A DNA stretch of 39,082 nt from a virus. The notes beneath the pieces are model-generated. The model had not been told where the DNA came from. It saw nothing but the letters and a program-made list of their open reading frames with translations, and made no database searches. This document shows, one piece after another, positions 23,674-39,082 of this stretch (its first letter is position 1; the number at the start of each line of letters is the position of its first letter). Made by a program: the position numbers and the translations under genes. Location: the IMG/VR virus record IMGVR_UViG_3300036444_000014, positions 1 to 39,082 of that record; one strand, 5' to 3'.

Positions 23674-23919
23674 TCAATCCGTCATTCCGAGTGCGGTCAG
23701 GTAGAGGTCAAGGATTTCGGCTTCCTCGCGACGCCGATCAGGATCGAGGCGACGCATCGCGACGATCCGCTTGATGATTTTCACGTCGAAGCCCGTGCCC
23801 TTGGCCTCGGCATAGATTTCCTTCTTGTCGTCGTTCATCGAGCGGATTTCTTCCTCAATCCGCTCGATGCGTTCGATGAAGGCGCGAAGATGCTGGCCGC
23901 TGATGACGCTCGCATCCAC
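23674..23919 (-). CDS. GapR-like DNA-binding protein (DUF2312)
   Basis: An 81-residue protein matching the GapR/DUF2312 family along its full length: LRAFIERIERIEEEIRSMND, KKEIYAEAKGTGFDVKIIKR and IVAMRRLDPDRRREEAEILD. GapR of Caulobacter is a nucleoid protein that clamps overtwisted, AT-rich DNA and assists topoisomerases. The start is a GTG at 23919 because GGGAGG lies 6 nt upstream; a TTG 6 nt earlier has no such spacing. It is placed in the late operon between the terminase group and the portal, so it would be made at the time of packaging. A role in DNA packing or late transcription is inference. Confidence 0.85.
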   Translation of the reverse strand: MDASVISGQHLRAFIERIERIEEEIRSMNDDKKEIYAEAKGTGFDVKIIKRIVAMRRLDPDRRREEAEILDLYLTALGMTD

Positions 23920-23921
23920 GA

Positions 23922-24146
23922 TCAACCTCCCAGCGTCGCGCCGGAGCTGTCGTCATAGGACAGCATGCGGCGGCCGCGTCGCGGCTTGTTGAGGTCCGCC
24001 GTCTCCATGTCCGTCTTGGCCTGCTCGCCGGCAACCTGGGCCATCATGCGGCCGGCATCCGATCGCTGTTCCAGCGTCTGCTGGATCATTTGGAGGCTGG
24101 CAGCCTTGTTTGATCCCCGGACAGCTCCTGCCATGGCAACACCCAT
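23922..24146 (-). CDS. Small late protein before the portal
   Basis: A 74-residue protein: an N-terminal helix, a Met/Gln-rich coil and the end PRRGRRMLSYDDSSGATLGG. Short proteins with a similar Arg-rich plus Gly-ending tail are common just upstream of portal genes in podophages; their role is unknown. The ATG at 24146 (or 24134) lies inside the 3' end of the GNAT-like gene, an overlap of about 60 bp in another frame, and no clear ribosome binding site decides between them. Its stop is followed after 2 nt by the GapR start. Confidence 0.6.
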   Translation of the reverse strand: MGVAMAGAVRGSNKAASLQMIQQTLEQRSDAGRMMAQVAGEQAKTDMETADLNKPRRGRRMLSYDDSSGATLGG

Positions 24147-24544
24147 TGTTCGGGCGCGCCCCCCATCGACCGAAAGCCGATCAGCCGCGCCATGCGCGCG
24201 CCCGACGGTGTAACCGTGAACGTGCGAATTTCGACCTGGGCATTTTGGCGGACGTTATCGAGGGTCCAATGAGCCAGCCGCAGCAATCCGGCCATGTGGC
24301 GACGCGCATCGTCGGCGAAGCAACACCACATCTCGTAGCGCGGCGGCTTGTCGAGTTCGTCGAGCGCACGCGGCAAGGGAAAGAGGCCCATGCAGGCCAA
24401 CGCCTCGCCGGCACCGTCCCGCGCCGTCCAGGCCGCGCCCTTCTGCTGTATCCGCGCGACCCTGATCGGATTGTCGCCGGTTTCATGGCTCCGTTCGAGC
24501 ATGGCCGCCAGCTCGAACAACCGCACGCCGCGTTCCACCCTCAC
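24086..24544 (-). CDS. GNAT-like protein (T7 gp13 analogue)
   Basis: A 152-residue protein with the layout of DUF2833/T7 gp13 proteins: a short N-terminal part, EALACMGLFPLPR, MWCCFADDARRHMAGLLRLA, a helix, EIRTFTVTPSGARMARLIGF and RSMGGAPEQWVL. The fold is related to GNAT acyltransferases, but in T7 gp13 is a virion-assembly factor and no acetyl-CoA loop is evident here. The start is a GTG overlapping the terminase stop as GTGA. The gene lies in the packaging cluster rather than with the internal proteins as in T7. Confidence 0.65.
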   Translation of the reverse strand: MRVERGVRLFELAAMLERSHETGDNPIRVARIQQKGAAWTARDGAGEALACMGLFPLPRALDELDKPPRYEMWCCFADDARRHMAGLLRLAHWTLDNVRQNAQVEIRTFTVTPSGARMARLIGFRSMGGAPEQWVLPWQELSGDQTRLPASK

Positions 24545-26049
24545 AGTTGAAACCCGCCCTGCAGGCGCGTGGACCCGGGCGGCCGGCGTGGCCCTCCCGC
24601 CCCTGCCGAGCCGCGCGCCGCCTGGTCGATGGCGCCGACACGACCGACGAGCGCCATGCAGATGTACTGCAAGGCATCGTGAGGGTTGGAATGCTCGTTC
24701 TTCTCCGGCCGCGGGTGTTCGGCATTGGCGACAGTGCCATCAGGATTTTTGCGGAAACGATACATGCTCGAAAAGCCGTCGATCAGCATCGGGCACCGCG
24801 TCGGCGACACCTGCAGGCCATAGACGCCGGGCGCCGCCGGATACATCAGAAGATTGCGGACGGTTTCGATGCGCGGCTTGATTTCGTTCGTATAGGCCGG
24901 CAGCAGCGGCACGGCATCGTAGCCCGGGCGCTGCAGCGCCTTGCGAATGATGTCGATGGCGGTCTGTTCGCCACCCTCCTTATCGGCGCCATAGTCGTTC
25001 GACGGATCGTAGCAGCCGAGCGATATCGGGTTCTCCGCATAGCGATCGACCAAGGCGGCTTTCAGCAGCTCGAGGAAGTGCGTCAGGCCGGTGCGGCCGC
25101 CATAGATTTCCTCGAGCACGCGGATCTGCAGGTTCGGCGCCCGTTGCACGATGACGACCGCCGGATGCAGACCAGAGATATCAAGGCCGATGGCGATCGA
25201 CGCGCCAGGGATCGGCTTGATCTCCTGCACCGCGATATGGTGCGAGATGTTGAATTCGGGATAGACCGGGAAGCCGGAGCGATCCCAGCCGACTTGTCCA
25301 TGCACGAAGCGATGCACATCCCATTCCGGCAACGATGCCGCCAGCGTCTGATAATAGGTCTTCGTGAGGTTTTTCGTGTTCTCGGCCTGCGGCGACAAGC
25401 CCGACGGCTGCAGATAGATTTTATGGCCCGGCTTCGGATTTTTGATGAAACGCTCGACGATCCAATGCGACGGTGAGCCCGGCGGATTGAGCGCGCCGAA
25501 CACGCACGGTTCGAGATCGATGCCGATGTCGTTGCGCGGTGGATAGCGCGTGGTGCGCTGAAGCATGAAGTTCAAGGCTTCTTCTTCGAGCAGATCGAAC
25601 TCATCACCGAGCGCGAACGTGCCTTCCCAGCCGCGCATCACGTCTTCGATGCGCTTGTCGCCCAGCGCCTGGAACTGCATCGTGATTTCCATCTTGCGGC
25701 CGCGCGGCGTCCGAAAGCGCACGATGTGGACTGCCGGCCGGTCTGCGCCGCCTTCCCAATGCGAACCGGGATAATCTTTGGGGAACCAGTTTGCCCAGCT
25801 TGCCAAGGTCGTTTTGTAGAGCGTACGATAATCGGTGCGCACTACAGCGCCCTTGGCCCGGATCACACCATCACGCATCGGCGGCAGCGAAGCCGCATAG
25901 CGCAGCGCCTTGAAGAACGAGGCGTTGGTTTTTCCGGAACCGACGGGGCCCATGATCAGGCATGCCGGGTGCGCGAAGTCGTGGATGTAAGCATTCGCGA
26001 CCGGGCCGGGTGGCACATAGTCGCTGATGCTGAATTGCGGTGTCTCCAA
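24541..26049 (-). CDS. terL: Terminase large subunit
   Basis: A 502-residue packaging motor. Walker A is GPVGSGKT at 34-41, Walker B is TFALGDEFD at 144-152 with the catalytic Glu next to Asp. The nuclease domain shows GLDISG (Asp290), CYDPSNDYG (Asp348) and NPHDALQY (Asp458), the RNase-H-like acidic triad. It cuts concatemeric DNA and pumps it through the portal. The only usable start upstream of Walker A is a TTG at 26049, with GAGGG 7 nt before it; the next in-frame ATG is too close to the P-loop. It is separated from the small subunit by 272 bp, an unusually long gap. Confidence 0.93.
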   Translation of the reverse strand: METPQFSISDYVPPGPVANAYIHDFAHPACLIMGPVGSGKTNASFFKALRYAASLPPMRDGVIRAKGAVVRTDYRTLYKTTLASWANWFPKDYPGSHWEGGADRPAVHIVRFRTPRGRKMEITMQFQALGDKRIEDVMRGWEGTFALGDEFDLLEEEALNFMLQRTTRYPPRNDIGIDLEPCVFGALNPPGSPSHWIVERFIKNPKPGHKIYLQPSGLSPQAENTKNLTKTYYQTLAASLPEWDVHRFVHGQVGWDRSGFPVYPEFNISHHIAVQEIKPIPGASIAIGLDISGLHPAVVIVQRAPNLQIRVLEEIYGGRTGLTHFLELLKAALVDRYAENPISLGCYDPSNDYGADKEGGEQTAIDIIRKALQRPGYDAVPLLPAYTNEIKPRIETVRNLLMYPAAPGVYGLQVSPTRCPMLIDGFSSMYRFRKNPDGTVANAEHPRPEKNEHSNPHDALQYICMALVGRVGAIDQAARGSAGAGGPRRPPGSTRLQGGFQL

Positions 26050-26321: not shown

Positions 26322-26909
26322 CTATTCGCCTTCGATATCAGGCGCTTGTCGCATTTCATCCGACGCCAGCCTATCCGACGCGGCGCGCGCGATGACGGTA
26401 AGTGTCTGTTTTTCCATCGCATCGATCATGTCGTCATCGATCGCGAGCGCGCCCTCGCGCCGCGTCGCCCGCAGGCTCTCGGCCGCCGCCTGCACGTCGC
26501 CGAACACGAGCACCGGCAAGCCGCTGCCATCGGTCTTGATCGCCGTCGGCATCTTGCTTTCCAGATATTCCAGCACCTTCTCGGCCACCTTGCGCCATTC
26601 GCTGAACGCTTCGAGCTTGTCGCATTCGAGCTGCCGCGCCAGGCCGTCGACGCCCATCGCCAGCACCTGCCCCATGGCGAGCAGCGGATGCGGCAGGCCC
26701 ATTTTCAGATAGGTGTCGCGCATCGCCGTGGTGCGCTTGTTCGGCACGCCCTTGCGCGATCGCCGGCCCATGGTCGACGGCATGATGCGGAACGGCGCCG
26801 ACGCCGCCAGTTGATCCTCATCGTCATCGAACGGCAGCACGTCCTGAGATTTTTCAGAACCCGCCTGTGCGCCCGCCGACACCCATAGATCGTCTTTTTC
26901 GCCCGTCAT
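26322..26909 (-). CDS. Terminase small subunit (candidate)
   Basis: A 195-residue acidic protein. After a disordered Asp/Glu-rich start comes GRRSRKGVPNKRTTAMRDTY, a basic AT-hook-like and helical motif typical of small DNA-recognition proteins upstream of large terminases, then helices with EWRKVAEKVLEYLESKMP and an acidic end. It is the first gene of the late operon. It should bind the packaging site. The ribosome binding site is weak (TAAGG at 12 nt). The call rests on position and the basic motif. Alternative: an unrelated DNA-binding protein. Confidence 0.6.
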   Translation of the reverse strand: MTGEKDDLWVSAGAQAGSEKSQDVLPFDDDEDQLAASAPFRIMPSTMGRRSRKGVPNKRTTAMRDTYLKMGLPHPLLAMGQVLAMGVDGLARQLECDKLEAFSEWRKVAEKVLEYLESKMPTAIKTDGSGLPVLVFGDVQAAAESLRATRREGALAIDDDMIDAMEKQTLTVIARAASDRLASDEMRQAPDIEGE

Positions 26910-26957
26910 TTCAGCACTTTGCCTTACTTTAACGTGCCGCGCGGCGCGGCGGAAAGC

Positions 26958-27215
26958 GAGACGGCTGTCTCACCCGTGTCTCACCCACTGTCACAGGACA
27001 AATCTCTGTTTCCATGAGGAATTGATGCTTTTGAGACAGTGAGACACTAAGACAGCCCTCACACACGCGTGCGCGCGCATATGCGTATACGCGCGCGCGT
27101 CACGCGCGCGAGGCGTCTGTCTCACTGTCTCAATGGCGCTTTTCATCGATCTTTCCGCTAGTTAGGCGAGACAGCCAGGGCTGTTTCAGTGTCTCGCTTG
27201 GTGGCTCACTGTCTC
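26958..27215. repeat. Array of ten TGTCTC-type octamers in both orientations
   Basis: GTCTC or GAGAC occurs ten times in 258 bp (at 26958, 26967, 26978, 27033, 27041, 27119, 27127, 27168, 27191 and 27211), where about 0.5 would be expected by chance. Most copies extend to TGTCTC(A/G)(C/A). Two copies lie 11 bp apart. Pairs form a perfect 16-bp inverted repeat (27031-27046 and 27118-27133, TGTCTCACTGTCTCAA) around a Z-DNA-prone core, and an 8-bp one (27166-27173 and 27190-27197). It looks like a multi-site protein-binding region: replication origin, late-promoter control or packaging site. Confidence 0.8.
27060..27110. other. Alternating purine-pyrimidine tract (Z-DNA-prone)
   Basis: Bases 27060-27100 alternate strictly (41 nt), and 27101-27110 continue after one break. 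The tract includes the palindrome GCGTATACGC (27084-27093) and long CG repeats. It sits centrally between the arms of the 16-bp inverted repeat. Confidence 0.8.
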
Positions 27216-27306
27216 ACCCCGAACCCTCCGGGGCGGAAATGCAGAACCGGCCGCCACGCTGGCACGGCTGGCACAGGGTCAAATGAGCGCCGCCATTAGA
27301 ATATTC

Positions 27307-27365
27307 CTGCCGGCCGGCCCGCGCCGTGCGCCGTAGGCCCTGGCAGGGCGCGGGCCGGCCGGCAG
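27307..27365. other. Very stable hairpin, 19-bp perfect stem
   Basis: Arms 27307-27325 and 27347-27365 (CTGCCGGCCGGCCCGCGCC and its complement) flank a 21-nt loop. No U run follows on either strand, so it is not a standard terminator. It lies between the octamer array and the small rightward gene. The rest of 26910-27465 shows no gene I can support. Confidence 0.7.
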
Positions 27366-28757: not shown

Positions 28758-30641
28758 CTACAGCTTCTCGAACGCATCGAGACGGATGAGCGCGCAGCGC
28801 AACTGCACGCCTGAAATGCGCACGCGGTTCAGCGCCGGATCGGTGCAGATCACGCTCGACGGCCCTTGCCGCAGCGCCGATTTCCACACCGATGCGCCGG
28901 GCACGCCGGCCCACTCGGTTTCTCGAAACAGCTTGAACAGCAGCGGGCTTTCGTTCGGCACCGCCAGCGCATAGCCCGGCCCGATCTCGCCCGGCACCAA
29001 GAGGCCAAGGCCAATCTGCTTCAGATCGGTGCGCACCTTCCGCAAATCCTCGGCATAGCTCTGCTCGCCCTGCTCTTTCAGCCAGTCGATCAGATCGCCG
29101 ACCGTGTGCTGGCGGCCGCCGCGCCACGCTTCCACCTGGCCGGTGAGGATGTGGATGACGCATTTGCGCCAATTGTCGCTGGCTTCCTCATATTCAAGCA
29201 TGGTGTTGGGCGCGAGCCATTCGCCCCAGCGATTGATATCGTCGACCATAGGCACGCCCAGCTCGTCGGCCTTTTGTGCGCCCAGCGCCAGGTCAGCGCA
29301 GGCCAGGAGCGTGCCGAGCGTGTCTTGCGCGCGGCCGTCGTGCCCAGCCTCACGCAACACGGTGCGATAGGCATCGAACGCGCTGTCAAAGCGCGGCCAT
29401 TCATCCATCAGCCGGCGCAGCAGCATCGGCCCCCAGGTGTCGGCATCGACCACCGGCGCTTTCTCGGCCGATTGTTCCACCGTGCGCCGATGCACGCGCA
29501 AGATCGCCATGCGGCTGACATCCTGCGGCTTCAAGGGCGGCGGATTGATCGACGAGAAGAAGAACGACGATTGCGCGCGAAACTGCGACGCCACATGATC
29601 CGATCCGCCGCGAAACCGCTGGCCGCCCGATGCCGCAAGCCGCGCCAGATGGATCACCGCCATGGCCTTGCGGTTGTCGACATCGGCCTCAAGCTCGTCG
29701 ACCGACACCGGCAGACTGTCCTGTTTCACCGTCTGGAAAATGCCGGCTTCCGTCGTGTCCTCGGCGCGCAGCAAAGCGCCACCCAAAATGCCTTTCACCA
29801 GATCCTGCAGCGTCGATTTGCCGACGGCCTTATCGCCGACCGCGAACACCGTCGGCCGCCATTTCAGCGCACCGCCCAGGATGGCGGAGGCGATCCAGCC
29901 GAGCATCAACACCGGATCGACCTCCGGCCGCGTCCAGTTCCACGAGCGCAGCAGTTTCAGGATATCGCCGGCCGGATTGATCTTGTCGCTCACCGGCTCT
30001 GACCATGGCGTCATGATCGCCGGCCGTGCCTGATAGAGCGTCGACGAGACGAAGCCCGTCGGTTGTTCCTCGAAATTGCCTTTGCGGTCGCGCTTATCGG
30101 TGCGCCACAGCGCATCGCCCGAATGCCAGATCAATTCGCCATTCTGGCCGCGCCACGCGCCACGCCCGCGCACGCGATCGACGGCGGAGAACAGGCCACG
30201 AATGGCCGCCTGGGTGTAGAAGGCGCGGCGCACCATTTCGGCGCGCCAGCCGTCGATACCGCCGCCCTTGGCGAAGCGCGGCCATGCCCAATAGAGATAA
30301 TCCTGATGCTGGCCGAACACGCTTTCGATCCAGCCCTGCCCGATCTTGCCGGGCTCGCCGGCCCGCAACTGCCCGAGCGCGTCGACCACATAGAGAATGT
30401 CGCCATCCATACCCAACGCCTGCACTGGGCAATCCGGCGGCATGCCATAGCGATCGGCTTTCCACTGGCCAGCCTCGACAGCAACACTTTGGCCATCGAT
30501 CGTGAACGTGCGCGGCGCGCCAATCGTCGTGACGACCGGCGCGCTGCGGGCGGCCTTCTTGCGGCGCGGTTCGGCGGCCGTAATGGCCGCGCGAACGCCC
30601 TCGATATCCGGCTCGAACGGCCGTTCTTGTCCCTGTGCCAC
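28758..30641 (-). CDS. Replicative helicase-type P-loop ATPase
   Basis: A 627-residue protein with Walker A GDKAVGKST at 269-277, a Walker B-like PVSVDELEAD at about 311-320, and FFFSSINPPPLKPQDVSRMA, which has the arginine/sensor layout of phage and plasmid replication ATPases. The N-terminal 200 residues hold no zinc finger and may bind DNA or the primase. It follows the TOPRIM primase gene two genes upstream, so the two likely start replication together. The start is a GTG at 30641 with a weak ribosome binding site. The exact superfamily (SF3-like or other) cannot be set by eye. Confidence 0.75.
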   Translation of the reverse strand: MAQGQERPFEPDIEGVRAAITAAEPRRKKAARSAPVVTTIGAPRTFTIDGQSVAVEAGQWKADRYGMPPDCPVQALGMDGDILYVVDALGQLRAGEPGKIGQGWIESVFGQHQDYLYWAWPRFAKGGGIDGWRAEMVRRAFYTQAAIRGLFSAVDRVRGRGAWRGQNGELIWHSGDALWRTDKRDRKGNFEEQPTGFVSSTLYQARPAIMTPWSEPVSDKINPAGDILKLLRSWNWTRPEVDPVLMLGWIASAILGGALKWRPTVFAVGDKAVGKSTLQDLVKGILGGALLRAEDTTEAGIFQTVKQDSLPVSVDELEADVDNRKAMAVIHLARLAASGGQRFRGGSDHVASQFRAQSSFFFSSINPPPLKPQDVSRMAILRVHRRTVEQSAEKAPVVDADTWGPMLLRRLMDEWPRFDSAFDAYRTVLREAGHDGRAQDTLGTLLACADLALGAQKADELGVPMVDDINRWGEWLAPNTMLEYEEASDNWRKCVIHILTGQVEAWRGGRQHTVGDLIDWLKEQGEQSYAEDLRKVRTDLKQIGLGLLVPGEIGPGYALAVPNESPLLFKLFRETEWAGVPGASVWKSALRQGPSSVICTDPALNRVRISGVQLRCALIRLDAFEKL

Positions 30642-30961: not shown

Positions 30962-31723
30962 TCAGTCCTGCGGCTTGGAGACCATGGCGGAGCCCGTGAG
31001 CTTTTCGCCATCGACATCGGCCGAAACCGAGACCTGTTCATGCGGCGGCAAATGTGGCGCGGGGGACATCGGCCGTCTCCAGCTCATCGGCACGCCGCCG
31101 CTTTCCGACGGAAAGCCCATGCGTGAGGCATAGGCGGCGCGCTGATCAGGCGGCAGATCGGCGATTTCACCCGGCGATAACTGCTGGCGCATCGCGTCAA
31201 CCTCATCGGCGCTATAGGGCGGCGCGGCGGGCTCTGGCTCCTGCGGCTCCGGCGCTGTCGGCCGCGTGACGACAACCTGTTTGCTGGAAACAGCACGCGA
31301 CCGCCCCTTGCGGTTGAACGCATCGTCCTCATCGGCATAGAGGCGAGCGCCGACACCGTCGGATTGCTCGAAAATCGTATCGCGCAAGCTGACGCGCGGG
31401 CGCTTCGGCATGACAGTGTCATGATCCACCAGCGGCCGCGAAACGCTTTCGCGAGCCGCATTGATGAGCAGCCCGAATGCCAACCACCATCGCTGTTCAA
31501 GCGGCGAACAACGATACCATTGGAGCGGCTTGACCAGGCCAGCCATGGCAGCCCTCTGTCGGATCAAGTCCGGCGGCGAACTGGAAGCATCCCACACAAA
31601 TGCCGCCAGATCGGCGAAAAGGTCTTCGTCGCCTTTTTGCGAAACATCCGCTGGCAGCTCGCAAATCATATCCGCAAAGGATTGGGCCACGACGCCGAGG
31701 GTCTTAAAATCAGGCGCACTCAT
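30962..31723 (-). CDS. Unknown replication-cluster protein
   Basis: A 253-residue protein. The first about 110 residues are helical and compact (CELPADVSQKGDEDLFADL, PLQWYRCSPLEQRWWLAFG). The rest is Pro/Ser/Asp-rich and probably disordered, with a DQRAAYASRMGFP stretch. GGAG lies 6 nt before the ATG, which overlaps the primase stop as ATGA. It lies between primase and helicase genes and could be a loader or adaptor for them, by position only. No known motif. Confidence 0.6.
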   Translation of the reverse strand: MSAPDFKTLGVVAQSFADMICELPADVSQKGDEDLFADLAAFVWDASSSPPDLIRQRAAMAGLVKPLQWYRCSPLEQRWWLAFGLLINAARESVSRPLVDHDTVMPKRPRVSLRDTIFEQSDGVGARLYADEDDAFNRKGRSRAVSSKQVVVTRPTAPEPQEPEPAAPPYSADEVDAMRQQLSPGEIADLPPDQRAAYASRMGFPSESGGVPMSWRRPMSPAPHLPPHEQVSVSADVDGEKLTGSAMVSKPQD

Positions 31724-32838
31724 GCTTTTCTCCGCAGTTGATCGTTGAAATCCTTGCCGACCTTGGCGCTGGCGATGCCGATCGGCAGGCCGTGTTTTTC
31801 AATTTTTTCGATGGCGCGATCGAAGGAGGCCACCGCCTGCGGCTTGGCCCAATCGTTATCGCGGCCGATGATGTAGCTGTCGACGCAGGCGAGCTGCGGC
31901 AGGTTGCCGAGATTGCCCAGCGATCCCGCTGCCCAGCAGCGCAGATCGGGCCGCGCCAGGCCCGCCGTATAGGCATCCTCCGCGCCTTCACCGACGAACA
32001 GCGGCCCGCGTACGCCCTGTGCCGCAGCCTCTTCCGGCGTCAGCCCGCTTTCGCCGCGCGTCAGGCGCATCACGCCGCCTCTGATATCACCGATCATCAG
32101 GCGCGGTTTCACGTTCACGCCAATGCCGCTGCCATCGTTGAGCGGCATGCCTTCCAGATCGGCCTTGTCATCACCGCGCACGCTGATCCACGTGACATGC
32201 ACGCCACCGAATGCGCCGGCCGGATCGACCACTTTGATGACCATGGCCGGCCCGGAATGTTTCACGTGAAAATGCGCAGCCGCCGGATGGAAGCGCAGCG
32301 AATATTCCTTATGCGGGATAGCCGACAGATCGACGCCGCGATGCCACATGTAGCTTTCGACATAGGTGCGGGTCGGCGAAACGGCCTCCGTCCACAGATT
32401 GATGGCGAGCTGGCGCTTGAATTCGGCGATCCGCACCGCCTCTTTCTCGGCTTTAAGCTGCGCGGCTTTCGCGTGCTGCCGCATCTCCGCCAGCCGATCG
32501 CTCGACATGCGTTCGATGCCGAGCCAGTCTTTAGCCCACTGGATCGCCTCGATACGCTGTTCGCGCGTCGGCGGCATGCGACATTTGAAGCGCACATAGG
32601 CTATAAAGTCGATTGCGTCACCGCGACAGTCGACCTCCGCATATTCGACGAAACCGCCCGCTTTTGGACCGCTGATATAAACCGTGAACGAGCCCGGTTT
32701 GCGATCAGGCCGCGTCGGGTTCCTCGGCTTATAAAGCCCGCCGACCACATGGCCGCCGGGCGCCAAGGTGCGCGCCAACGATGCAGCGCGATCCTGTAGC
32801 ATGCTCTTGATGTCGGCGACGGGAACGCGATCGTTCAC
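31720..32838 (-). CDS. TOPRIM-type DNA primase
   Basis: A 372-residue protein. The N-terminal half has FVEYAEVDCRGDAIDFIAY, resembling the DNA-binding/core part of phage primases. Residues about 190-240 contain HFHVKHSGPAMVIKVV and VHVTWISVRGDDKA. The TOPRIM domain follows, with LFVGEGAEDAYTAGL (Glu284 and the GEG motif at 283-285) and GRDNDWAKPQA (Asp327, Asp329) as metal ligands. No N-terminal zinc finger is visible. The start is a GTG at 32838 overlapping the preceding stop as GTGA. It makes primers for the helicase-driven fork. Confidence 0.8.
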   Translation of the reverse strand: MNDRVPVADIKSMLQDRAASLARTLAPGGHVVGGLYKPRNPTRPDRKPGSFTVYISGPKAGGFVEYAEVDCRGDAIDFIAYVRFKCRMPPTREQRIEAIQWAKDWLGIERMSSDRLAEMRQHAKAAQLKAEKEAVRIAEFKRQLAINLWTEAVSPTRTYVESYMWHRGVDLSAIPHKEYSLRFHPAAAHFHVKHSGPAMVIKVVDPAGAFGGVHVTWISVRGDDKADLEGMPLNDGSGIGVNVKPRLMIGDIRGGVMRLTRGESGLTPEEAAAQGVRGPLFVGEGAEDAYTAGLARPDLRCWAAGSLGNLGNLPQLACVDSYIIGRDNDWAKPQAVASFDRAIEKIEKHGLPIGIASAKVGKDFNDQLRRKA

Positions 32839-33524: not shown

Positions 33525-33751
33525 GACGTCAGCCTGTCGTAGGCACTCAGCCACTCGGAAAGCGCCCAAAAGCAGAAGGTGGCGACGGCGACGAACAGTG
33601 CCAGGCCATAGAAGGCGAGGCCGGTAAGACCATTCGCCACCAACTCACGAAGCACAGCGCCACCCAATGCCAGGACAAGGCTGCCGTAAAACCCTGCCAC
33701 GATGAGCCAAAACGCGGCGACCACCGCGCGCGAGAAACGGAACATCTTCAT
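33521..33751 (-). CDS. Two-span membrane protein
   Basis: A 76-residue protein with hydrophobic segments at about 8-33 and 43-65 and a short charged start (MKMFRFSR). GGAGG stands 5 nt before the ATG at 33751. It overlaps its upstream regulator gene and downstream peptide gene by ATGA. It is an early membrane protein directly after the first regulator; exclusion or host-takeover roles are possible but unproven. Confidence 0.65.
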   Translation of the reverse strand: MKMFRFSRAVVAAFWLIVAGFYGSLVLALGGAVLRELVANGLTGLAFYGLALFVAVATFCFWALSEWLSAYDRLTS

Positions 33752-34278
33752 TCCACCCTCCCCGAAATCAGCCGCGAGACGCGTTCGACGAGCGCATCGA
33801 TCGCGGGATCGTCGCGCAGGTCTTCCACCCGCTTGAGGCATTCGCTGACGGCCTGTTTGGTCATGCCGGCGGCTTCGGCGACACGGCGCCCGGGCACGCC
33901 CAGCTCGACATGGGTGCAATAGACCGCCAGCGCGCGCACCCGCGCAGCCGCCAGCCATGCCGGGTCCGACACTTTCGAGAGCGACGGCTGCGAGGCCGCC
34001 ACCGCTTCCGGATCAAGCCCCTGCTCGCGCGCGATCAGGGCGAGGAAGCCGCGATAGGTGCCCACCAGCAGGGATTTAGGCGCCGCAGCCTGCCTATCCC
34101 CCTTCCGGGCGACTTTGATTGCATCTTGCAAACGCCAGAGCGTGGCTGGCCGGGGCCGCGCCCGACCCGTGGCAATGCGCCAATAGGTTGTGATCGGAAC
34201 GCCCGCAAACTTGCAAACGGCCCGCACAGACAGATTGTTAGCGACGCGCTCTTGGTCGATCGATTGAAAATTTAGCAA
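33748..34278 (-). CDS. Early regulator: XRE-like HTH plus DnaA-domain-IV-like part
   Basis: A 176-residue protein. Residues about 12-57 (NNLSVRAVCKFAGVPITTYW, RPRPATLWRLQDAIKV) form a Cro/XRE-like helix-turn-helix. Residues about 75-172 (LIAREQGLDPEAVAASQPSL, WLAAARVRALAVYCTHVELG, AEAAGMTKQAVSECLKRVED) follow the layout of DnaA domain IV, where helix pairs bind DnaA boxes. I choose a TTG at 34278 with AGGG 7 nt upstream, because ATGs further out lie inside the promoter and operator. It is the first gene of the leftward early operon, so it may be a Cro-like switch and/or a replication initiator. Both are inference. Confidence 0.7.
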   Translation of the reverse strand: MLNFQSIDQERVANNLSVRAVCKFAGVPITTYWRIATGRARPRPATLWRLQDAIKVARKGDRQAAAPKSLLVGTYRGFLALIAREQGLDPEAVAASQPSLSKVSDPAWLAAARVRALAVYCTHVELGVPGRRVAEAAGMTKQAVSECLKRVEDLRDDPAIDALVERVSRLISGRVE

Positions 34279-34312
34279 GGTACAACCCTGACGTGCCAAA
34301 TCACTTTGCAAC

Positions 34313-34341
34313 ATTGGACTTGCAATATTGCAATTCGTCAA
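34313..34341 (-). promoter_or_regulatory. Leftward early promoter with operator in spacer
   Basis: On the minus strand -35 is TTGACG (34341-34336), the spacer is 17 nt and -10 is TCCAAT (34318-34313). The 14-bp perfect palindrome TTGCAATATTGCAA (34320-34333) lies inside the spacer, so a bound repressor would block RNA polymerase. The same palindrome recurs at 35359-35372. Confidence 0.7.
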
Positions 34342-37786: not shown

Positions 37787-39082
37787 ATGCCAGCGTCCTG
37801 CCCGGAGACCGCTGTGAAAATCGAGGTCCATATTCCCTATGTCGTCTGGCGTGACGGCCGGCCGCGCTTCGAGCCCGGCCCCGCCATGCGCGCGCTCGGC
37901 TTCAAGGGCGTCGACCTACGCCATGGCCCGCAAGATGCGCGCGGCCGCCTCACGGGCGCCTGGTTCACCCTCGACGAGTGCAAGGCGTTCGCCGAACGGC
38001 GCTTGAAGGAAGTCGACGACGCGCGCACCAGGGTTGCGCGCGGCAAATCGCCCAAGGCTATCGTCGCCAAGGCACAACGGCAGGCCCCGCTCTACTCCGT
38101 CGCCGATATGTTTGGCGAGTTGTGGACCGAACAGCGCTTCAATGTGCCACGCGATCAAGGCGGCCTCTCGCCGCGCACGATCAGCGACTATCAGGACAAC
38201 GCCAAAATTCTGCAGGCGTTCGACCCGGAGCTGTTCGCCAGCCCGGCGGAGGCGATCACGCCCGGCATCGTGCGCGGCCTGCATCAGGCCCTGTGGGAGG
38301 ATCGCGGGCTGACGATGGCCGGCCGCATCATCAGCGTGTTGTCGGTCGCCTATACCCATTCGATCAGCTTCGAGAAGCCGGCGCGGCGGCCGCTGCGCTT
38401 CAATCCCTGTCTCAAGCTCGATTTGCAGAAGCCCGCCCCGCGGCTGCGCGTCGCCCTGCCGAAGGAAGTCGCGGCGCTGATGCAGGCCGCCGACGAGATT
38501 GAGCCGGAAGTCGGCGACGCCTATATGCTCGGCCTCTACACGGCGCAGCGTCTGGGCGACGTGCTGCACCTTGCCGAACAGTGGATCGGCGAGAAAGAGG
38601 ACAAGCTGCGCTTTCTGCAGAGCAAGACCGGCGCCCGGGTGCGCGTGCGCGCCACGCCGCAATTGCGCGATCGGCTTATCCAGGCCAAGGCTCGGCGCGA
38701 GGCCACGCTGGTCCGCCTGCGGGCGCAATTGAAGCCCGGCCAGAACTATCTGCCGGAGCCAAAGACCATCGTCATAGATCCCCGCAACGGCGAGCCCTAC
38801 AGCATCCGCTGGTTCAACGACCGCCATCGCGCCGTCCGCGCCCGCGCGGCCGAAATTTGCCCGTCCGTGGCCGACTTCCTGTTTCTGGACTGGCGTGACA
38901 CCTCGATCACCCGCATGGCCCTGGCGGGCAGCACATTGGCCGAGATCGCCGGTGTCAGCGGCCACTCCCTGCAGTCGATCCACCAGATCATGAAACATTA
39001 TCTGGAAATCGGCGAAGCCCATGCCGACGCGGCGATCGACAAGCTGGTCGCCTGGATGGAGAGAGAGGGGATCGCGGTATGA
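37787..39082 (+). CDS. int: Tyrosine site-specific integrase
   Basis: A 431-residue integrase. Residues about 100-200 hold the core-binding helical domain. The catalytic part shows Arg255 (YTAQRLGDVLHL), Lys280 (LQSKTGARV), Arg370 in LDWRDTSITRMA (the usual His of HxxR is Leu, as in many alphaproteobacterial phage integrases with a DxRDT box), His393 (VSGHS) and nucleophile Tyr405 (KHYLEIG). It should integrate and, with an excisionase, excise the prophage at the tRNA-Lys 3' half seen at 1552-1596. The start is an ATG at 37787 behind AGGGG; a GTG at 37814 behind GGAG is a good alternative. The gene is complete and ends at the window edge. Confidence 0.92.
   Translation: MPASCPETAVKIEVHIPYVVWRDGRPRFEPGPAMRALGFKGVDLRHGPQDARGRLTGAWFTLDECKAFAERRLKEVDDARTRVARGKSPKAIVAKAQRQAPLYSVADMFGELWTEQRFNVPRDQGGLSPRTISDYQDNAKILQAFDPELFASPAEAITPGIVRGLHQALWEDRGLTMAGRIISVLSVAYTHSISFEKPARRPLRFNPCLKLDLQKPAPRLRVALPKEVAALMQAADEIEPEVGDAYMLGLYTAQRLGDVLHLAEQWIGEKEDKLRFLQSKTGARVRVRATPQLRDRLIQAKARREATLVRLRAQLKPGQNYLPEPKTIVIDPRNGEPYSIRWFNDRHRAVRARAAEICPSVADFLFLDWRDTSITRMALAGSTLAEIAGVSGHSLQSIHQIMKHYLEIGEAHADAAIDKLVAWMEREGIAV

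Follow-up and report, generated by a model that had tools for sequence, protein, structure and literature searches.

The DNA analyzed here, referred to as the window, comprises 39,082 bp and corresponds to positions 1–39,082 of the IMG/VR virus record IMGVR_UViG_3300036444_000014. An array of short repeats is located between its replication genes and the TerS-like and TerL genes. The TerS-like gene is without a family match of its own. The following features were assigned at this locus (coordinates of the window).

24541–26049, minus strand: TerL (large terminase)
26322–26909, minus strand: TerS (small-terminase-like), assigned by position and a G-x-x-x-G-x-x-N-K motif
26955–27217, no strand: whole iteron array, 263 bp, proposed replication origin
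26958–26994, no strand: left outer set with GAGACG 26958 (−), TGTCTC 26966 (+), TGTCTC 26977 (+) and the degenerate TGTCAC 26989 (+)
26995–27032, no strand: left AT-rich spacer (window sequence; family spacer AT 0.58 vs 0.36 genome AT)
27033–27046, minus strand: left inner tandem pair of TGTCTC, 8 bp apart
27047–27117, no strand: core with an alternating purine-pyrimidine run at 27060–27100 (41 bp)
27118–27131, plus strand: right inner tandem pair of TGTCTC, 8 bp apart
27132–27167, no strand: right spacer
27168–27215, no strand: right outer set with TGTCTC 27168 (−), 27190 (+) and 27210 (+) and the degenerate TGTTTC 27182 and TGGCTC 27202
28758–30641, minus strand: AAA+ primase/helicase, phrog_21086, proposed initiator
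about 28758–29216, minus strand: proposed C-terminal reading domain of the helicase (residues 476–627, wing tip at residue 613)
31720–32838, minus strand: Toprim/DUF7146 primase-like gene of the replication module

The pentamer GTCTC/GAGAC occurred ten times across 258 bp (26958–27215), as an earlier note on this DNA had stated. The best 258-bp cluster in 300 simulated genomes (first-order Markov sequences with the dinucleotide statistics of the window) usually contained about three pentamers (3–4) and once seven. Most pentamers belong, again as described in that note, to the octamer TGTCTC(A/G)(C/A). TGTCTCRM was found 12 times in the window, and nine of these copies lie inside the array; the shuffle mean for the whole window was 4.3. 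One-mismatch copies within the array (TGTCAC 26989, TGTTTC 27182 and TGGCTC 27202) brought the total to about 13. The 16-bp inverted repeat at 27031–27046 and 27118–27133 proved to be perfect, and both the direct pair 11 bp apart (26966/26977) and the inverted pairs outside were present as reported. The alternating purine-pyrimidine tract between them is real and the longest in the window (runner-up 15 bp), but the 51 bp originally given for it were an overstatement, the uninterrupted run being 41 bp (27060–27100). When compared with a telomere-resolution site of the N15 tos type, the array showed nested inverted repeats, and its centre is an imperfect palindrome only. Toward the helicase gene, at a distance of about 90 bp from the array, a separate GC-rich inverted repeat (27307–27365; 23 bp, 96% complementary, 13-bp loop) was observed, which may serve as a transcription terminator of the early operon.

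The element was found to be kept in related phages. The TerL relatives L005, L011 and L012 (55–59% identity) carry it in the same place and with the same hexamer; the 12 hexamers of L005 form an exact dyad, in which the start positions of every mirrored pair sum to 3480. Pattern scans added L014, L015, L017 and L021, with TerL identities to the window down to about 30%, and a half-array scan added L045. In a TerL profile search of viral contigs at least 599 stretches were matched and 80 loci were kept, among which at least about 50 relatives possess the same element directly upstream of terS. In most of the kept loci with enough flank a search restricted to GT-starting words revealed 9–16 copies of one hexamer per array, compared to about 0.5 expected. 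The mode was 12 copies, often as 6+/6−. The hexamer itself varies by lineage (GTCTCA, GTTCCA, GTTAGG, GTAGAC, GTTGCA, GTCCC, GTCGCA and others) and always starts with GT. This start is not merely an artefact of the restricted search, since an unbiased hexamer ranking gave the same GT-bearing words. A hexamer cluster was detected in 43 of the 50 array windows and in a single one of the 817 remaining windows from these loci. Arrays were also present in two human gut phage records, MT835534 and MT835930. In a sample of 385 alphaproteobacterial genomes the paired pattern was encountered in one, namely the one holding L011. Neither objection that the earlier note had named, an octamer equally frequent in host DNA or a region not kept in related prophages, was borne out. 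BLAST searches of phages and plasmids with the array as query yielded nothing useful, and the literature on TGTCTC in phage origins and on Z-DNA iteron origins contained nothing relevant that we could find. L011 and L012 (CAIZGR010000042.1 and CAIZGR010000675.1) are two phage-like contigs of one Rhizobiales MAG, with the same TGTCTC element and diverged proteins.

The geometry of the element is constant while the hexamer motif changes. Throughout the family two tandem inner sets surround the alternating core, and outer sets follow beyond AT-rich spacers; each array half consists of an outer set, an AT-rich spacer and an inner set. The inner tandem sites are about 8 bp apart across the family. 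The outer-to-inner distance, determined for the 38 arrays with clear inner sets, exhibited a peak at 41–46 bp and a secondary peak at 51–57 bp, which is one helical turn (about +11) more. The spacers contain 58% AT compared to 36% for the genome. In the core, the maximum length of alternating purine-pyrimidine runs had a median of 19 vs 6 in control windows (99th percentile of the controls 13). Judged from these sequences, a core predicted to be Z-DNA-prone is conserved across the array family.

In the window the start of TerS is about 50 bp from the array. The gap between array and terS amounts to about 20–100 bp in nearly all loci, and terS follows immediately downstream in essentially all of them. 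The helicase gene lies upstream of the array in most loci, at a distance between 35 bp and 3 kb (1.5 kb in the window), and the array stays at terS even where this gene is several kb off (L077, L106). Pac and cosB sites of the classical type are likewise found at terS. The observed arrangement speaks for a packaging recognition site of the pac or cosB type, bound by the adjoining TerS; the element resembles lambda cosB and phage pac sites in that these, too, are repeated terminase sites next to terS. Two proteins, TerS and the phrog_21086 AAA+ helicase, travel with the array and were considered as its possible readers, with TerL as control. The helicase was present in every record with an array whose contig was long enough, in two of them some 6–7 kb away. 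Its presence cannot separate TerS from the helicase as reader because the array-less TerL relatives on long contigs are without both.

TGTCTC units of the same geometry (41–46 bp) were also identified in unrelated phages (L026, L027, L028/L048, L029 and L031). At a blastp threshold of 1e-4 L026, L027, L028, L029 and L031 shared almost nothing with the clade of the window, and no protein common to all TGTCTC-bearing phages was found. A D5-like primase-helicase is encoded by L027, L028/L048 and L029; it was looked for in L026 and L031 and was not found. The arrays of L029 and L048 lie in the primase/helicase module, at least 3 kb from the terminase genes. Two groups of lower-GC contigs (L026, L030, L032–L036, L039, L040, L042–L044, L046 and L047; L031, L037 and L038) contain only one TGTCTC unit, an inner and an outer set 44 bp apart, immediately upstream of a phrog_51-type terS, a position which again favors a packaging site, and no D5-like helicase was found in either group. 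L036 and L047 have an extra site 11 bp further in, giving an inner distance of 33 vs 44 bp, one helical turn less. The isolates with an L031-like TerS (HTVC027P, HTVC023P and DSL-LC04) showed no TGTCTC array. The BcepC6B record (NC_005887.1; L072) has a different inverted repeat, ACGATAGGGACGATA ... TATCGTCCCTATCGT, within its first 98 positions, upstream of terS; this could be a comparable element built on a different motif. Matches to the strict pattern GAGACANNGAGACA..TGTCTCNNTGTCTC also included CCACAGAGACACAGAGACA dispersed repeats (L013, L016, L018, L020, L022, L023) and GGAGACAAGGAGACA runs (L024, L025), which are unrelated and were set aside. The viral contigs L013, L016, L018, L020, L022 and L023 carry a dispersed CCACAGAGACACAGAGACAC...TGTGG inverted repeat, likewise unrelated to the element.

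Covariation between hexamer and protein was analyzed for 448 pairs with TerL identities below 0.5, using pairwise Spearman and partial rank correlations with label permutation. Hexamer similarity followed helicase identity (Spearman 0.40; partial rank r 0.39 given TerS and TerL, p 0.001) and not TerS identity (Spearman 0.00; partial r −0.08, p 0.91), the permutation behind both p values leaving some phylogenetic structure in place. The partial r for TerL was 0.07. Within the helicase, the C-terminal part gave a partial r of 0.26 and the remainder 0.07. In 18 cases the nearest deep neighbour differed between helicase and TerS; here the motif of the helicase neighbour fitted better nine times and that of the TerS neighbour once. 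Parsimony required nearly equal numbers of motif changes on the TerS tree (22 steps), the TerL tree (21) and the helicase tree (20). Thus, the pairwise partial test separates the candidates, whereas parsimony and tree-based co-change tests do not.

One position of the helicase drew attention in this comparison. Residue 613 in the C-terminal wing (Q613 in the window) is Q in 8/8 GTCTC helicases covering the position, which fall on three separate branches of the helicase tree. Other motif classes have K with GTTCC, S with GTCCC and E with GTCGC; L119, with Q and GTCCCA, is an exception. This pattern is only suggestive and might reflect a residue that reads the base on the opposite strand (Q-A, K-G, E-C). 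In a co-change test on the helicase tree, with about 7 independent motif changes, residue 613 ranked 37 of about 3,480, and many columns of both helicase and TerL associate with motif position 5 via the deep clade split.

These results make a packaging site improbable. The motif tracks the helicase and not TerS, which cosB or pac repeats would be expected to follow; the arrays of L029 and L048 belong to the replication module and not to terS. Moreover, the most conserved segment of TerS, G-R-P-x-G-S-x-N-K, is identical across the motif classes. The structure prediction for TerS was poor (pLDDT 55).

The helicase model, based on 30 sequences, reached a pLDDT of 86.8. It predicts a C-terminal beta-hairpin with strands 606–609 and 612–620, in which residue 613 would be placed beside the turn. 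The best structural match of residues 63–623 was SCCmec Cch (5dgk; Z 16.1, rmsd 5.7, 429 residues), at a sequence identity of 11%. SaPI5 PriRep (7ola, Z 13.7) was matched as well, among many MCM-type AAA+ helicases. The origin of satellite P4 has iterons, its ori1 and crr are separate sites, and we know of no alternating core in either. The P4 alpha protein is a primase-helicase initiator with its own origin site (PMC6092414); the phage system is likened to alpha with ori and crr by description only. In SaPI Rep and Cch2 it is the C-terminal domain that binds short iterons, which are situated just downstream of the respective gene (PMC7581432). The iterons of Cch2 are AAGTG, and its site contains only three of them (PMC7581432), unlike the phage arrays; SCCmec, moreover, is a resistance cassette and not a phage. 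In PICI origins an AT-rich region lies between two iteron sets (PMC6092414).

We propose, at a probability of roughly 0.8, that the element is a phage replication origin for a self-loading initiator helicase. In support, hexamer similarity tracks the helicase, mainly its C-terminal domain, and neither TerS nor TerL, and residue 613 goes with the motif class. At least about 50 loci share the element with constant geometry and changing motif, and all array-bearing records on long enough contigs carry the helicase. The helicase model resembles Cch and PriRep, whose relatives bind iterons, and PICI origins share the layout of the array half. The position of the L029 and L048 arrays in the primase/helicase module points in the same direction. 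Several observations count against an origin: the array sits tighter to terS than to the helicase, the L026 and L031 groups have a TGTCTC unit at terS with no D5-like helicase found, the stricter co-change test does not single out residue 613, L119 is an exception at this residue, many helicase and TerL columns associate via the deep clade split, and the label permutation leaves some phylogenetic structure in place. The earlier note had expected an origin, a late-promoter activator array or a terminase site here; the origin is now favored among them, and the terminase site loses ground since the repeat tracks the helicase rather than TerS.

The origin might operate as follows. The TGTCTC hexamer would be the iteron bound by the C-terminal domain of the AAA+ helicase of the phage (28758–30641), whose subunits would occupy the sites. 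About six sites per half would suit one helicase hexamer each, the two being loaded in opposite directions, back to back. The AT-rich spacers would then melt, the alternating core could serve as a flexible or supercoil-absorbing hinge, and the primase would begin synthesis.

A control region, that is an operator or a late-promoter activator array, is a still poorer candidate than a packaging site; a regulator of the phage, for instance the DnaA-domain-IV-like HTH protein encoded at 33748–34341, would then bind the array. The array does lie where the early and late leftward operons meet, upstream of terS, and several such phages (window, L014, L015, L021) encode HTH regulators whose C-terminal part is DnaA-like. 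However, an operator would need far less than about 12 sites in a strict dyad, together with spacers rich in AT and an alternating core, the L029 array is found inside a run of primase-helicase genes, and the covariation points to the helicase. Binding by a host factor would account for the recurrence of TGTCTC units with this geometry in phages whose proteins show no detectable homology, but it is very unlikely, as related phages differ in their hexamer and these differences follow the phage helicase.

The proposed origin is closest to the Rep-ori replicons of PICIs and SaPIs (SaPIbov1, SaPI1, EcCICFT073; PMC6092414, PMC7581432). Both systems combine a primase with an AAA+ helicase, in the phages a proposed initiator, and have short lineage-specific iterons, which in SaPIs are read by the C-terminal domain of the helicase. 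Both also place two iteron sets around an AT-rich region, and the PICI origin lies downstream of rep, sometimes upstream of terS. Unlike these replicons, the phage element would consist of two such units back to back with a GC-rich alternating purine-pyrimidine core between them. It has about 12 sites, lies up to several kb from the helicase gene and occurs in whole phages with their own structural genes. The window represents a phage and not a PICI since it has TerL as well as portal-like and further structural genes, which it shares with related phages. The earlier claim that no described phage element has this layout is fair for the whole, but each half has the published layout of a PICI origin (PMC6092414). 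By analogy, each half would thus be of an already known kind. New, as far as we found, are the doubled form with its alternating core, the fact that whole phages carry it, and the hexamer turnover that can be seen across them. It is a tentative proposal, which we hold to be rather less than an even bet, that this is an undescribed class of phage origin with two hexamer-sized units (about 6+6) loading two helicase rings back to back, a core selected as a Z-DNA or supercoil switch, and an amino-acid-to-base code of the wing (Q, K, S, E with T, C, C, G) that gives each lineage a private origin.

The same layout is found with helicase-matched hexamers in about 50 phages, and therefore origin recognition becomes open to study across a natural series. 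Nature supplies dozens of repeat variants, each together with its helicase. This series allows direct tests of origin recognition and opening by a self-loading AAA+ helicase and of the drift of origin specificity between phages. In uncultivated phages the hexamer array would provide a simple handle for locating origins.

Further genes of these phages deserve mention. HTH regulators with a related C-terminal part are encoded in the window (33748–34341), in L015 (1114–1695), in L021 (12003–12491) and also in L014; by eye this part resembles DnaA domain IV. A GapR/DUF2312 homologue was detected above the cut-off of NCBIfam PRK13694 in the window (23674–23925, minus strand) and in L005 (1059–1304, plus strand). 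GapR is a nucleoid protein which binds over-twisted DNA, and the phage homologue may therefore help around the replicating phage. Finally, an integrase-like ORF at 37787–39082 suggests an integrating prophage.
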